Assembly (NCBI GenBank): GCA_029432795.1 | Contig: JARNMJ010000007.1 | Span: forward strand, 1 to 64,000 | Direction of reading: 5' to 3' | DNA length: 64,000 bases | Origin: Pontiellaceae bacterium B12219 | GTDB lineage: Bacteria; Verrucomicrobiota; Kiritimatiellia; Kiritimatiellales; Pontiellaceae | Part shown: piece after piece, positions 2,836 through 7,735 of the stretch | Layout: the number at the start of each line of letters is the position of its first letter | Position numbering within the stretch: position 1 is the stretch's first letter | Translations under genes and position numbers: made by a program | The notes under the pieces: generated by a model | The model's input: the letters and a program-made list of their open reading frames with translations, nothing else | The model's database searches: none | What the model was told of the DNA's origin: nothing

Positions 2836-4605
2836 TTAATCGCAGGCCTGTTGTTCTGCTTTGAGCGGATGAAGGCGCTGATAGATATCGATAAACGTTT
2901 GATGAGCCGGCGATATATTTTCCCAGCAATCGGAAAACGTCAGTCCATGAAAGGTCGTTGTTCCGGCAACAATTGCCCGCGCGTCGGACAGGAGCAGTTC
3001 ATCAAAAAACAGGCCGAGTGCTGTGCCGTAGCGAGCAGGGGCTGCTCCGGACAATTCGAGGTTAAGCAATGTGTGAATTACGCGGTATAGTTTTTCCCTG
3101 GCGGGCGGTAAGCAGTCAAAATTCAAACACCAGCTGCACCAGATCTCGGCTTCTTCGAGGTTGCCGGTTGCGAGGGCGAGCATCCCTTTAAGTTCGCCGA
3201 TACGCAAGGTATGCCAAACAGAGCCTTCTTCAAAGAGTACGCCGATGGCATCGGAAACGGGTTGCAGATCGTTCAGCCCGAGCTCTGCCAGGTTATCGGC
3301 GAATTTTTTTAATTCGTCGATGGACATGTGCTTCAGAGTGAGCAGTTGCGGGCGCAGGGAAGCTCCGGTGTTTTTATTACTCCAGATCAGATCGTCGGGA
3401 AGATAGATGTCTGACATTCCGGGAATGATGATGCGGCAGGTGTAGATGCCGCAATGGCGATATTCAGCACAATAGGCTTCGTGTCCGGATTGGGTGATGA
3501 TGGTCTTAAGATGGTCATATTCTTCGGCGGTGCTGCCTTCGAAATTCCAATCGTTAAATTCAAAATCGGATTGATCGCCGAACATCTTCCACGAAAGCAG
3601 TCCGTCGGAATCGATAAAGTGGCTTTCCAGATTGAGTTCGTCAGCAACGGTGTCGAGATCGTGCGACGGCCGTTTGAACACATCGAGCTGGTCGAGGCCG
3701 CGCCCCTGCAGGAGTTCGGTCACCGTGCGTTCGAGTGCCACCTCAAAGCGGCAGCTTGCTCCGAAAGAAGCATAACAGCCGCCGTTTTCAGGGTTGATCA
3801 GCAGGACGCAGATCACGGGGAACTGGCCGCCCATGGATGCGTCTTTAACCAGAATGGGGAATCCGTTTGCGCGAAGCTCTTCGATGTCATTTTGTATGCG
3901 GGGATAACGTGCGAGTATTTCAGGGGGCACCGTGGGCAGGCAAAGTCCCATGGCGATTACATTGTTTTTAACATATCGTTCCAGAATTTCCGCCATGGCC
4001 TGCGCACGGCATTCAGTCCGCGTGTTGCCGGCAGCCATGCCGTTGCTCACATACAGGTTTGTGAGAATGCTGACGGGAAAATAGACGATCTTCTTGCTGC
4101 TGATCTGCTCAAAGGGCAGGGCGGCAATTCCGCGGTCGGGGTGGTCGGTATTATTGTCAAGCAGTTGCGCCGGGATCAGTTCACGGTCCGAATTATAGAA
4201 TGAATGCAGAGCGGCTGTGAGCAGCTGCGTTCCATCGGGGTGATGCGTTGGAACCGTCGATGGTGCTTCAATCGGAAACCACTTTTCATTGGGAAAAAAG
4301 ACAAAGTCCTTTTTCGCAATATTGCTACCCAAATAATAGTCGTAAAAAAACAGGTTGGTGGAGAGCCGCTCGAAAAATTCGAGCACGGCACTGGCTTCAC
4401 TGGCCAATTCCGAGCGGCCTTTACCGTTGGTATAAATCTGCGGACATTCCGTTGAACGCAGATGCACGGACCAGCAGTTTTGTACGGGGTGTTTGCTGGA
4501 AACCAGTTCGATGGGAAACCCCTGTTCACGGAGCAGTTTACGTGCGTTTGCGATGGTGTCTTCCAGTGCGGAATCTTTACCGGGGATATGTGTTTTTGTG
4601 GTCAT
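2836..4605 (-). CDS. ycaO: YcaO-type cyclodehydratase-like protein (RimO accessory type)
   Basis: At 589 residues it matches E. coli YcaO (586) in length and opening pattern (FIPGKDAALEDSI-type; here HIPGKDSALEDTI). The glutamate-rich ATP-binding segments of the YcaO fold are visible: SEASAVLEFFERLS (about 70-83), AQAMAEILERYV, and RFEVALERTVTELLQGRG. A C-terminal helical repeat domain follows. YcaO proteins use ATP to activate peptide amide bonds; the E. coli protein is genetically linked to RimO methylthiolation of ribosomal protein S12. The start overlaps the stop of the racemase gene by 4 nt, so translation is probably coupled. Its place beside amino-acid racemase and DUF1611 genes is unusual for a ribosome-modification factor. 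It lacks the PxPxP-like tail seen in azoline-forming YcaOs. Confidence 0.9.
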   Translation of the reverse strand: MTTKTHIPGKDSALEDTIANARKLLREQGFPIELVSSKHPVQNCWSVHLRSTECPQIYTNGKGRSELASEASAVLEFFERLSTNLFFYDYYLGSNIAKKDFVFFPNEKWFPIEAPSTVPTHHPDGTQLLTAALHSFYNSDRELIPAQLLDNNTDHPDRGIAALPFEQISSKKIVYFPVSILTNLYVSNGMAAGNTRTECRAQAMAEILERYVKNNVIAMGLCLPTVPPEILARYPRIQNDIEELRANGFPILVKDASMGGQFPVICVLLINPENGGCYASFGASCRFEVALERTVTELLQGRGLDQLDVFKRPSHDLDTVADELNLESHFIDSDGLLSWKMFGDQSDFEFNDWNFEGSTAEEYDHLKTIITQSGHEAYCAEYRHCGIYTCRIIIPGMSDIYLPDDLIWSNKNTGASLRPQLLTLKHMSIDELKKFADNLAELGLNDLQPVSDAIGVLFEEGSVWHTLRIGELKGMLALATGNLEEAEIWCSWCLNFDCLPPAREKLYRVIHTLLNLELSGAAPARYGTALGLFFDELLLSDARAIVAGTTTFHGLTFSDCWENISPAHQTFIDIYQRLHPLKAEQQACD

Positions 4606-5741
4606 AGGCTTTCCTTATAAGCGGGAATGAGCTGGCGGGCCTTTTCTGCGGGCGAACGCGAGGGCAGAATGGTGGCGGTCCGCTTTTTCCAAAGCTTGGA
4701 AATAAAGGGCGAAGTCATTGCCCGGAGCAAGGCGCTGTAGTTGAGCTGAAATGCAATTTCGGTGCCGACGGGATGGCTGAGGCCGTTGGTTTTAACCACT
4801 AAATGGTCGCTGCTGGCTTCCAGGATTTCAATATCATGGGGGGCTTCCAGTCCGGAGGGATCAATATCCTGACGACCCAGAGCGAGGATGGCCTGTTGAA
4901 TGGGACCGTTCGTCTTCGGGGGCGCAGGAATGCCGAACGCATTTTGTGCGATGGTTCCCCACGGTTGCGATGGTTTTATCTTTGATTCAATCACCTCGGC
5001 CACGAGGGTGATGGCATCGGTGTGCAGTCCAATGATCGGTTTACGGTGGAGCGGATCGCAGCCGAGCAGAATGGATTCGCCCAAACGCAGATTATTTACG
5101 CGCCCGGTATCGGCTCCGCTGAGGGCCCAGTGCAGATTGGCCGAGTTTCCACCCGACACCACCTCCAGCTGAAATCCGAAGAAGGACTCGATTGCATTTG
5201 CAAGGGCAGAGAGCCTCGCCATGTTTTCGGCATCCGGCACGACTCCGCTGCGGCAGGCCAGATTGGTTCCGATACCTTTAATGGCGATATTCGGCAGATG
5301 CAGGATGGCTTGAACCGTTTGCATCACGTCGTTGGGCAGAATCCCTTCGCGCAGATCGCCCAGTTCAACCATCAGTACGATTCCATGAATCCGCTTTGCT
5401 TTTTTCGCTGCGTCAGAAAGCAGACGGATGACATCGATTTCGGTATTAAAACTGAGCTCCGTGTATTTCACGACGCGTGCCGCCTGACTGCTCATCGGCG
5501 AGCGAATGAGCGCCATGGGGGCTCTGATTCCTCCCTGGCGCATTCGGGTTATGTTTTCAATGCGGGCATCTCCCAGCGTTTTAATGCCCGCTGAAAGGAG
5601 AGTATTTGCAACTTCAGAGGAACCCAGAGTGGCTTTCATGACGGCAGTAACCGAAATGCCTTTCGGAGCCAAACGGCTGACGAGGGTGCGTGCGTTGAAT
5701 TGTATTTTTTCCAGATCGATCTCTAATCGCGGCGCAATCAT
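4602..5741 (-). CDS. PLP-dependent amino-acid racemase (alanine/ornithine racemase family)
   Basis: A fold-type III PLP enzyme of 379 residues. The N-terminal block ISVTAVMKATLG carries the lysine that binds PLP in alanine racemase-like proteins, and VVSGGNSANLHWAL around residue 195-208 fits the phosphate-binding part of the barrel. It resembles the 'alanine/ornithine racemase family' more than canonical Alr and lacks Alr's usual motifs. It should racemise an amino acid in the cytoplasm; the substrate cannot be read from sequence. It overlaps both neighbours by 4 nt (DUF1611 upstream, ycaO downstream), a tightly coupled operon. A copy of the dispersed palindrome lies near the 3' end and encodes SKLWKK. 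Confidence 0.8.
   Translation of the reverse strand: MIAPRLEIDLEKIQFNARTLVSRLAPKGISVTAVMKATLGSSEVANTLLSAGIKTLGDARIENITRMRQGGIRAPMALIRSPMSSQAARVVKYTELSFNTEIDVIRLLSDAAKKAKRIHGIVLMVELGDLREGILPNDVMQTVQAILHLPNIAIKGIGTNLACRSGVVPDAENMARLSALANAIESFFGFQLEVVSGGNSANLHWALSGADTGRVNNLRLGESILLGCDPLHRKPIIGLHTDAITLVAEVIESKIKPSQPWGTIAQNAFGIPAPPKTNGPIQQAILALGRQDIDPSGLEAPHDIEILEASSDHLVVKTNGLSHPVGTEIAFQLNYSALLRAMTSPFISKLWKKRTATILPSRSPAEKARQLIPAYKESL
4687..4701. repeat. Dispersed palindrome TTCCAAAGCTTGGAA
   Basis: Perfect 6+3+6 palindrome inside the racemase gene; the centre is AGC. On the coding strand it lies in the codons for SKLWKK. Confidence 0.85.
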
Positions 5742-6844
5742 ATAATCTGGGTAAGCAGTCTTTTCCTAAGCACAGGAAAAGCTTCTACAACCATATCAAC
5801 GAGCCGGTCCGTAGAGCGGGTGAGTGCATCGGTGGCCGGAATGCCGAGTTCCGCCTCATAGGTTTTGATTGCGGCGCTGACCGCTTCGTCGGTCATGTTT
5901 TCGTGATTGATGGTCAGGCCGATCACTTTCGTCGGGGCAAAGGTTTCGATGAGATTGATTTCGGAGGCTGCAGAGGGCATCGGAATTTCCGGGAAGTCGC
6001 CCAGATGCGTGCGTGCAGGCGCATGCTGCAGCACTACGCCATTGGCCATGCTGCCGCGGAGAATATATGCGGAAGTCAGATAGGCCGGATGGCTTAGGGC
6101 GCCTTGCCCTTCAACAATAATAACGTCGGGGTGTTCTCCTTTAAAGGCTTCAATCATTGTGGACTCTAATTCGCCGGAGCAGAATTGGCAGGGAATCGCA
6201 TCGATAGCAAGCCCGTACCGGGCACCCTGGATCAAACCGGTCTGGCCGGTGCCGATCAGAACCGCTTTGATGCCGCGTTCGTTCAACGCACGCGTGAGGA
6301 TGGTGGCTGTGGTGCGTTTGCCAATCGCACCGTCGGTGCCGAGGACCGCAATCCGGGGACAGGTGACTTTGGCGATCCGGCCGCTGAACATCCGCAGATC
6401 TTTTTTGGGGCGGGGCCGCCGGATATCAATAATCTTAACGTTTCCGGCTTTGCCCGCTGCAGCGAACTCAGGATCATCGTTTAAGAATTCATGCAGGCCG
6501 TTCACGATATTCATACCCTGTCCCATTGCGTCGAGCACGAGGCTGCGTTCGACGGGAGAGAGCATGCCGCTGGCTGGCGCCATTCCGTAAATGAAATAGT
6601 CGGGTACTGCACTGGTGTCGTCCAATGCCGCCGAAAGATCGGTGAAAATCGGGATTCCATTCGGGCTTTCATCGAGTACTTCCCCGGCATCCTTACCTGC
6701 TTTTGTGCTGTCGATGACTGAGAGGATTTTATATTTCTCGGAATATCGAACGAGTCCGTTGGCGGTTTTTCCGTCCATCGCACCGAAGTTTGCTTCGCAA
6801 TAAACGATTGCGGTTGGGTGACAGGGGCTATTAGAGATGGACAT
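5738..6844 (-). CDS. DUF1611 P-loop protein, DgcN-like (possible D-glutamate N-acetyltransferase)
   Basis: Protein of 368 residues with an N-terminal DUF1611_N-like domain and a C-terminal P-loop domain whose Walker A is GTDGAIGKRTT (about residue 169-179), followed by VIIVEGQGALSHPAY. This is the DUF1611 family. One member, DgcN of marine bacteria, has been described as an N-acetyltransferase in D-glutamate catabolism, where it works with the enolase-superfamily enzyme DgcA. Here no DgcA is adjacent; a PLP racemase is, overlapping by 4 nt. First gene of the operon. AGGAGG sits 5 nt before the ATG and can pair with CCTCCT upstream in the leader, suggesting translational control. The D-glutamate role is an inference from the family. 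Confidence 0.75.
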   Translation of the reverse strand: MSISNSPCHPTAIVYCEANFGAMDGKTANGLVRYSEKYKILSVIDSTKAGKDAGEVLDESPNGIPIFTDLSAALDDTSAVPDYFIYGMAPASGMLSPVERSLVLDAMGQGMNIVNGLHEFLNDDPEFAAAGKAGNVKIIDIRRPRPKKDLRMFSGRIAKVTCPRIAVLGTDGAIGKRTTATILTRALNERGIKAVLIGTGQTGLIQGARYGLAIDAIPCQFCSGELESTMIEAFKGEHPDVIIVEGQGALSHPAYLTSAYILRGSMANGVVLQHAPARTHLGDFPEIPMPSAASEINLIETFAPTKVIGLTINHENMTDEAVSAAIKTYEAELGIPATDALTRSTDRLVDMVVEAFPVLRKRLLTQII

Positions 6845-6955
6845 AAGTCCTCCTTGAGTATGTTCAGAGGAGGCGACGGGATCGTGCCTGCCGGAATTGG
6901 CAGAAGGTCAACGAGAGGACCCCACTAAAAGTGGTTGAATGGTCACAACGTACTC
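6845..6955 (-). promoter_or_regulatory. Structured leader RNA with sequestered ribosome-binding site (candidate riboswitch)
   Basis: Read on the minus strand, the leader of the DUF1611 operon can form hairpins CCACT/AGTGG (6934-6922), GGTC/GACC (6921-6906) and CTGCC/GGCAG with a 6-nt loop (6903-6888). Then CCTCCT (6873-6868) faces the Shine-Dalgarno AGGAGG (6854-6849) across a 13-nt loop, just before the ATG at 6844. That last pair is the usual form of a translation-blocking expression platform. I do not recognise the upstream part as a known riboswitch class. No promoter was assigned. Confidence 0.5.
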
Positions 6956-7074
6956 CGTTTTTCGGATAATAGATAGGGTAATCGCTTATTCCTTTAAAAT
7001 CATTGGGATACGTAAAATGGAAGGCTATGGGGAGTATGTTTTTTTATTCAATGTCCGGTTGCTCCGTGACGGAC

Positions 7075-7131
7075 TTTTTTTCGTGTATATTCGGGCGGAT
7101 ACCTATAGATTCCGTGCCTTATTCAGGAGAG
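7075..7131 (+). promoter_or_regulatory. Putative promoter and leader shared in form with proS
   Basis: A T-run followed by CGTGTAT (7082-7088), a 17-nt spacer and TAGATTCCG (7106-7114), then AGGAGA (7125-7130). The same boxes with the same 17-nt spacer occur before proS at 7850-7882. The geometry fits a -35/-10 promoter, though the boxes are far from TTGACA/TATAAT. Confidence 0.4.
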
Positions 7132-7147
7132 TTGGAGAAGCTTGACG

Positions 7148-7735
7148 ATGGGATCTGAAAATAATCTGAAACAGGCTTCGTTGCAGGACCGTATGACGAA
7201 ACTGACCCAAACCCGGTTCAACTACTGGGCGGAGTTTGTGATCGATATTCCGTTGGGGGGGCTGCTGATCGTTGCCGGCGTGCGAAACCATGAACTCGGC
7301 CCCGTCGTGATAGTACTTACCGTTCTGCTGGGTCTTCTGCTCTACAGTTTTATAGAATATTTCTTTCATCGCTGGCTGTTTCACGGTCCGGTGGAGATCA
7401 TGGCGGAGGGACACCGGGCGCATCATGACGATCCGATGGGCTACGATGCGCTGCCGTTTTTTCTGCCGGCGATCATCATGTTGGTGCTCACCGGAGTGTT
7501 TGTGCTGTTTATGCCGCTGAAAGTTGCCTTGCTGCTGATGGGAACCATCACGCTGAGTTACACGACGTATGGTCTGAGTCATTTCATTATTCACCACCAC
7601 CGGTTTCGGAAGGTTTTTGCCCGTGACTGGGCGGCGAATCATCATATCCATCATCACCATGAAGATAAAAACTTCGGTGTAACAACGCCATTGTGGGATA
7701 TTGTGCTCGGAACGCTTTATAAAAGAAAGCGGTAG
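7148..7735 (+). CDS. Membrane fatty acid hydroxylase / sterol desaturase superfamily protein
   Basis: Protein of 195 residues with four hydrophobic segments and the histidine clusters of the di-iron fatty acid hydroxylase superfamily: HRWLFH (about 74-79), HRAHH (89-93), HFIIHHHRF and NHHIHHHH near the C-terminus. Such enzymes hydroxylate or desaturate lipids at the membrane using O2 and a di-iron centre. The substrate is unknown. An O2-dependent enzyme would be notable if the organism is an anaerobe. ATG at 7148 is chosen over the in-frame TTG at 7142; GGAG and AGGAGA lie upstream. A shared promoter-like leader with proS suggests similar regulation. Confidence 0.8.
   Translation: MGSENNLKQASLQDRMTKLTQTRFNYWAEFVIDIPLGGLLIVAGVRNHELGPVVIVLTVLLGLLLYSFIEYFFHRWLFHGPVEIMAEGHRAHHDDPMGYDALPFFLPAIIMLVLTGVFVLFMPLKVALLLMGTITLSYTTYGLSHFIIHHHRFRKVFARDWAANHHIHHHHEDKNFGVTTPLWDIVLGTLYKRKR

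Follow-up and report, generated by a model that had tools for sequence, protein, structure and literature searches.

A conserved structured leader RNA upstream of DUF1611-racemase genes is a candidate translational riboswitch

The DUF1611-racemase-YcaO locus and its leader

The window is a stretch of 64,000 nt from Pontiellaceae bacterium B12219, an assembly that groups with Pontiella (Pontiellaceae relatives). The following features were located around the start of an operon on its minus strand.

2836..4605, minus strand: YcaO gene (S12 methylthiotransferase accessory type; NF040716, 715.7 bits, above cut-off)
4602..5741, minus strand: fold-type III PLP racemase gene, ornithine-racemase-like (PF01168)
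5738..6844, minus strand: first operon gene, encoding a DUF1611 (DgcN-like) protein (Pfam PF07755/PF17396)
6849..6854, minus strand: Shine-Dalgarno (SD) sequence AGGAGG, read from the sequence
6849..6939, minus strand: conserved structured leader RNA (model R1/R2, 92 positions; about 60 homologues)
6947..6952, minus strand: TACGTT, a -10-like element (aligns with TAGGTT in other Pontiella; no transcript data)
6969..6977, minus strand: CCTATCTAT, an upstream promoter-like element conserved in Pontiella leaders

The DUF1611 protein scored 161.9 bits with the NCBIfam model of DgcN (NF041892), below the equivalog cut-off of 480, and the racemase scored 353.1 bits with that of ornithine racemase Orr (NF040742), below the curated cut-off of 480. 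A DUF5698 gene follows the operon (2248-2820 of the window), and a close relative of it lies upstream of DUF1611 in the Thiotrichaceae-related genome G1462 (L123:6661-7104). This recurrence may suggest linkage or joint transfer.

The structured element is about 90 nt long. On the minus strand, CCTCCT (6873-6868) and AGGAGG (6854-6849) are separated by a spacer of exactly 13 nt, and the ATG is at 6844. The initial annotation had described a 110-nt leader with three stable-looking hairpins, in which CCTCCT can mask the AGGAGG SD over a 13-nt loop. The positions and spacing of the masking pair held exactly. The extent was narrowed to 6849-6939, with the promoter-like -10 falling in 6955-6940, and the number of hairpins had to be corrected. 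The single-sequence fold (136 nt) contains four main hairpins, namely P0 (6934-6931:6925-6922), GGUC:GACC, P2 and the SD hairpin. Of these, GGUC:GACC needs U6919 and is not conserved, because an A occupies this position in other Pontiella copies. A long-range pairing of the conserved fold, P1, had been missed. The fold of the single sequence exceeds chance expectation only slightly (z -2.1; 7 of 200 shuffles were as good), and it is conservation across relatives, not this fold, that marks the element as more than a chance structure.

In most copies a -10-like element, many of them TGnTAnnnT or GGTAnnnT, is located about 10-25 nt 5' of the RNA, and the transcription start was therefore placed at the RNA's 5' edge. 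Elements of the CCTATCTAT type occur at similar spacing in Verrucomicrobiales and at one planctomycete locus. In the window, transcription is likely to start near 6940, at the edge of the structure and not within it; start and promoter are both inferred from sequence alone, without transcript data.

An RNA family in several phyla and absent from Rfam

The window leader was scored by cmsearch at 95.0 bits with covariance model R1 and 91.4 bits with R2. About 60 copies were found by covariance model in Kiritimatiellota, Verrucomicrobiales, Planctomycetota, Gammaproteobacteria and Acidimicrobiia, usually one per genome. Nearly all stop just a few nt short of a start codon, on the same strand as the downstream gene. 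The first model detected the RNA in 4 of 338 genomes of the window's own phylum and in 3 of 229 from one gammaproteobacterial class; for the planctomycete phylum the count was 8 of 294, and for the acidimicrobial class 11 of 296. The refined model added further copies. Four matches were excluded as unrelated, apparently coding sequence (L116, L117, L118, L120), and one as too weak in score (L129).

Within the genus, leaders matched each other at BLAST E-values of 1e-31 to 1e-42. Leader DNA is 80-85% identical among the operon-bearing genomes, and most sequence further upstream cannot be aligned. In other phyla, covariance-model E-values reached about 1e-23 per genome. The motif shared 5' of DUF1611 homologues reads CUUAGYGGGGACCUCUCGUUGAC..(hairpin)..GGCACGAUCCCGUCGCCUCCUCUGAG..CUCGAGGAG..AUG. 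It stands before DUF1611 in Planctomycetota, Verrucomicrobiales, Sedimenticola, Thiotrichaceae, a Marinobacter bin, a deltaproteobacterial bin and Acidimicrobiia; many of these genomes are metagenome bins, and some taxon labels may be wrong. The conservation and position of the RNA are shown. A coding region was rejected, as most copies contain stops in every frame. Locus L044 has, upstream of DUF1611, what looks like a degenerate form of the leader (TTAGTTGGAACTCTCTGTTGAT...), undetected by the models.

Rfam 15 (4227 families) gave no match at gathering score anywhere in the window, none to 6700-7150 at E<=5, and no credible match in the homologous leaders, the stronger ones included. The open-access literature searched contained no link of DUF1611 to a riboswitch or a racemase; subscription papers were outside the scope of the search. 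The leader belongs to an apparently undescribed family of structured RNAs that is likely to be cis-regulatory.

The next gene is an intact DUF1611 gene in 49 of the 60 copies, normally followed by an ornithine-racemase-like gene. Only the Pontiella copies have YcaO in the operon, and it was not found beside other leaders. The conserved unit is therefore DUF1611-racemase without YcaO, and of the DUF1611-racemase-YcaO operon named in the initial annotation only the first part is general. In G272 the leader is kept while the DUF1611 gene behind it is broken into pieces, and in G945 just a racemase fragment was found near the leader. Many of the RNA-associated proteins carry a poorly conserved N-terminal extension of 20-50 residues, absent from Bacilli orthologues.

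Conserved structure and covariation

The elements of the conserved structure are as follows.

6922..6934, minus strand: P0 hairpin CCAC-UUUUA-GUGG, competing with P1b
6920..6929, minus strand: P1 5' strand (P1a UUUAG 6929-6925, P1b GGGG 6923-6920), pairing with 6871-6863
6904..6919, minus strand: J1/2, a highly conserved unpaired stretch in the alignments, consensus ACCUCUCGUUGAC
6888..6903, minus strand: P2 hairpin CUGCC-AAUUCC-GGCAG (tree-based covariation, swap test)
6873..6887, minus strand: P3 hairpin GCACG-AUCC-CGUCGC (complementary changes in divergent copies, swap test)
6863..6873, minus strand: anti-SD strand CCUCCUCUGAA, doubling as the P1 3' strand; nearly invariant, with the P1 5' strand or the SD as alternative partners

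The consensus of the P1 3' strand is CCUCCUCUGAR, and that of the P1a pairing is CUUAG:CUGAG. Over 59 aligned matches, 90.3% of the cells in the modelled structure were paired, with slid controls far below, and 57 double-change cells were observed against 13.3 in shuffles. One of the 59 was a weak extra and was omitted from later tests. The structure was used in fitting the alignments, which are biased in its favour.

Two further tests were used. In the tree-based test, which is R-scape-like and not R-scape itself, Fitch-mapped substitutions were re-placed at random as the null. When only the 19 modelled pairs were considered, two P2 pairs were significant (E 2e-4 and 1e-3), and the P1 end pair (E 0.056) and one P3 pair (E 0.076) were borderline; over all pairs, just one P2 pair was under 0.05. 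In the partner-swap test, which depends little on the alignment, each strand was paired with its own partner or with that of another sequence. With 38 representatives, swapped partners did as well in 0 of 5000 trials for P2, 6 of 5000 for P1a, 14 of 5000 for P3 and 37 of 5000 for P0. With 28 representatives P1a (19/5000) and P3 (39/5000) held, and P0 faded (523/5000). No signal was obtained with the 38 representatives for P1b, nor for five control pairings, and SD masking was not distinguished (508/5000). Gammaproteobacterial folds had suggested that J1/2 pairs with the SD region; the swap test was negative for this pairing, which was dropped.

P2 thus covaries significantly. P1a and P3 have weaker support than P2, from compensatory changes and swap tests; in Sedimenticola, for example, P3 has become GCAAU/AUUGC. 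Two compensatory changes bear on P1. At the P1 end, C-G is replaced by U-A in Pontiella and the matching SD-hairpin pair is lost, and in three Verrucomicrobiota copies A-U is replaced by G-C at a base that is bulged in the SD hairpin. Both changes are consistent with P1 but not with the SD hairpin. J1/2 may be the ligand pocket, an inference made without binding data.

Mutually exclusive folds and a proposed switch

P1 and the SD-masking hairpin are mutually exclusive, because the P1 3' strand is also the anti-SD. In the free fold of the window the SD is paired with the anti-SD at a probability of 0.60-0.96, and over the copies the SD hairpin is predicted at a median probability of 0.9, high in most. 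In the window, the predicted energy of the masked fold is lower than that of the P1 fold by about 9 kcal/mol (median 13 kcal/mol in favour of masking over 58 copies), and P1 is nearly weightless in predicted ensembles without ligand. The energy models leave out tertiary contacts. In gammaproteobacterial copies the aligned anti-SD/SD pairing was not predicted, and SD masking is weak or goes through other bases. One criterion for a riboswitch, an expression platform with mutually exclusive pairings, is fulfilled, more weakly in the gammaproteobacterial copies: the complementarity of both pairings is shown and the switching is inferred.

Since the masked fold is the more stable, the resting state should be off, and the P1 core would need stabilising to open the SD. 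We propose that, when ligand is absent, CCUCCUCUGA (the anti-SD) would pair with the first gene's SD and keep translation off. On folding of the aptamer, P1a and P1b would close P2, P3 and the conserved J1/2. The P1 3' strand would then capture the anti-SD and free the ribosome site, so that ligand would turn the operon on. With moderate confidence, we favour a metabolite-sensing riboswitch acting on translation, probably an ON switch, as the best description of the leader, in the absence of ligand, binding or expression data. The small-molecule ligand and the ON direction are both inferred. The RNA may be called riboswitch-like in design; its membership among riboswitches remains unproven without binding evidence.

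The opposite direction is also conceivable. In an OFF-logic riboswitch, ligand would bind the core without P1 and stabilise the SD-masked state. Neither P2 nor P3 conflicts with the SD hairpin, and masking is favoured already. However, P1a, which is backed by compensatory changes and the swap test, excludes the SD hairpin, and we consider OFF logic unlikely. An RNA thermometer or plain translational brake would need no specific ligand, as the SD hairpin would simply melt or set a low basal level, and the high predicted probability of this hairpin in most copies (the median of 0.9) speaks for it. Such a device, however, has no need for a 90-nt core with nearly invariant unpaired bases in J1/2 and the P3 loop across phyla, and this explanation seems very unlikely.

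The initial annotation's candidate translational switch was supported and passed those of its proposed checks that were run. The search for a known RNA gave no Rfam match at any useful threshold. Homologous leaders are present across phyla and covary. The predicted transcription start does not fall inside the leader.

A second operon and other exceptions

The RNA is not confined to DUF1611 operons. In G021 and G003, two genomes of the window's genus, it stands before a cytidylyltransferase / Thr-phosphate-decarboxylase-like operon unrelated to DUF1611, and no DUF1611 gene was found in either genome (G003 is 89% complete). Aligned as DNA, the two loci become similar from the RNA onwards. The closest solved relatives of their nucleotidyltransferase are a nucleotidyl transferase/aminotransferase and CTP:phosphocholine cytidylyltransferase, and in G021, the locus that was read further downstream, a CDP-alcohol phosphatidyltransferase comes next. 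By inference, the operon could be one for amino-alcohol phosphate headgroup synthesis, which it resembles. Use of the RNA by two unrelated operons is shown, and G021 and G003 satisfy a second criterion, that the RNA occur before more than one operon independently of a linked protein.

Two copies are present in G1462, at a distance of 5 kb, and one of them precedes DUF1611. The other is nearly identical to the G003 copy and lies at a contig end, with its downstream gene beyond the contig. In single weaker cases the downstream gene encodes a secreted repeat protein (L081), a zinc alcohol dehydrogenase (L082) or a small protein (L113). The protein behind the RNA at L081 (Thiotrichaceae) and one near DUF1611 at L036 (Parvularculaceae) are both secreted proteins with repeated WxCxxGF...C...P.NA units.

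These loci bear on two other explanations. In a protein-responsive leader, a regulatory protein would bind the RNA and set SD access, as in ribosomal-protein autoregulation. Highly conserved unpaired bases and a structured SD region would also suit a protein site, and one gene pair lies downstream of most copies. However, the phyla are scattered and there is mostly one copy per genome, so the regulator would have to travel with the RNA; we regard this as possible but unlikely. Autoregulation by DUF1611 is disfavoured by G021 and G003, where the RNA is present and DUF1611 was not detected. Alternatively, the RNA could be part of a mobile or selfish DNA unit that travels with the operon and has no regulatory role. 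The scattered distribution, the leaders remaining before decayed genes and the near-identical copies in G003 (Pontiella genus) and G1462 (Thiotrichaceae-related) would agree with this. The constant placement with respect to SD and start codon, the covariation and the conserved promoter-like sequence do not, and such a unit is very improbable. Plasmid, phage and viral collections contained no match to the element.

The ligand question

The initial annotation had guessed at a D-amino acid, glutamate or a related metabolite as ligand, which our analysis neither shows nor excludes. The gene of DgcN, a DUF1611 protein, has been reported to be a key one in a pathway of D-amino acid racemisation (PMC12363236). 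Judged by the enzymes, an amino acid or derivative is a possible ligand and a reasonable first guess, no more, as there are no binding data. DUF1611-racemase orthologues in Bacilli lack this RNA and have no Rfam match in the leader, and no ligand clue was gained from them.

The Bacilli leaders have features of their own. The region about 30-140 nt before the DUF1611 start had fold z-scores of -1.8 to -2.8 over the four loci folded (L050-L053), and three of the four (L051-L053) form a terminator-like hairpin with inner stems, such as GAACAUCUUUU...AAAGAUGUUUUUU. These leaders may contain a different attenuator.

A bolder reading of the leader is that it represents a new riboswitch class sensing a metabolite common to D-amino-acid-type (DUF1611-racemase) and amino-alcohol-phosphate/CDP-headgroup pathways. 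We would not bet for or against this reading. If it is true, knowing the ligand would show what the DUF1611-racemase pair does. Orphan riboswitch classes each indicate a metabolite monitored by cells. Here the RNA precedes a gene pair of unsettled function in several phyla together with a chemically interpretable second operon, which makes ligand and pathway testable, and an element this short with a simple SD switch is easily built into a reporter.

Comparison with known systems

Like orphan riboswitch candidates such as the former DUF1646 motif, now the Na+ riboswitch (PMC9337991), the leader is a 5' element found across phyla, with conserved unpaired bases, before a gene of unknown function. 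Unlike these, it is unmatched in Rfam 15 by sequence or structure, and its ligand is not known. Its first gene in the window encodes a DUF1611 protein like DgcN of the DgcN/DgcA D-glutamate pathway, but its score falls far short of the DgcN cut-off (161.9 vs 480), and it is paired with an Orr-type PLP racemase. The leader also resembles translational ON riboswitches with P1/anti-SD exchange in that its closing helix contributes its 3' strand as the anti-SD; in the leader, however, the switching is predicted only, and no Rfam 15 family is matched by the core (P1-P2-P3 with a long J1/2).
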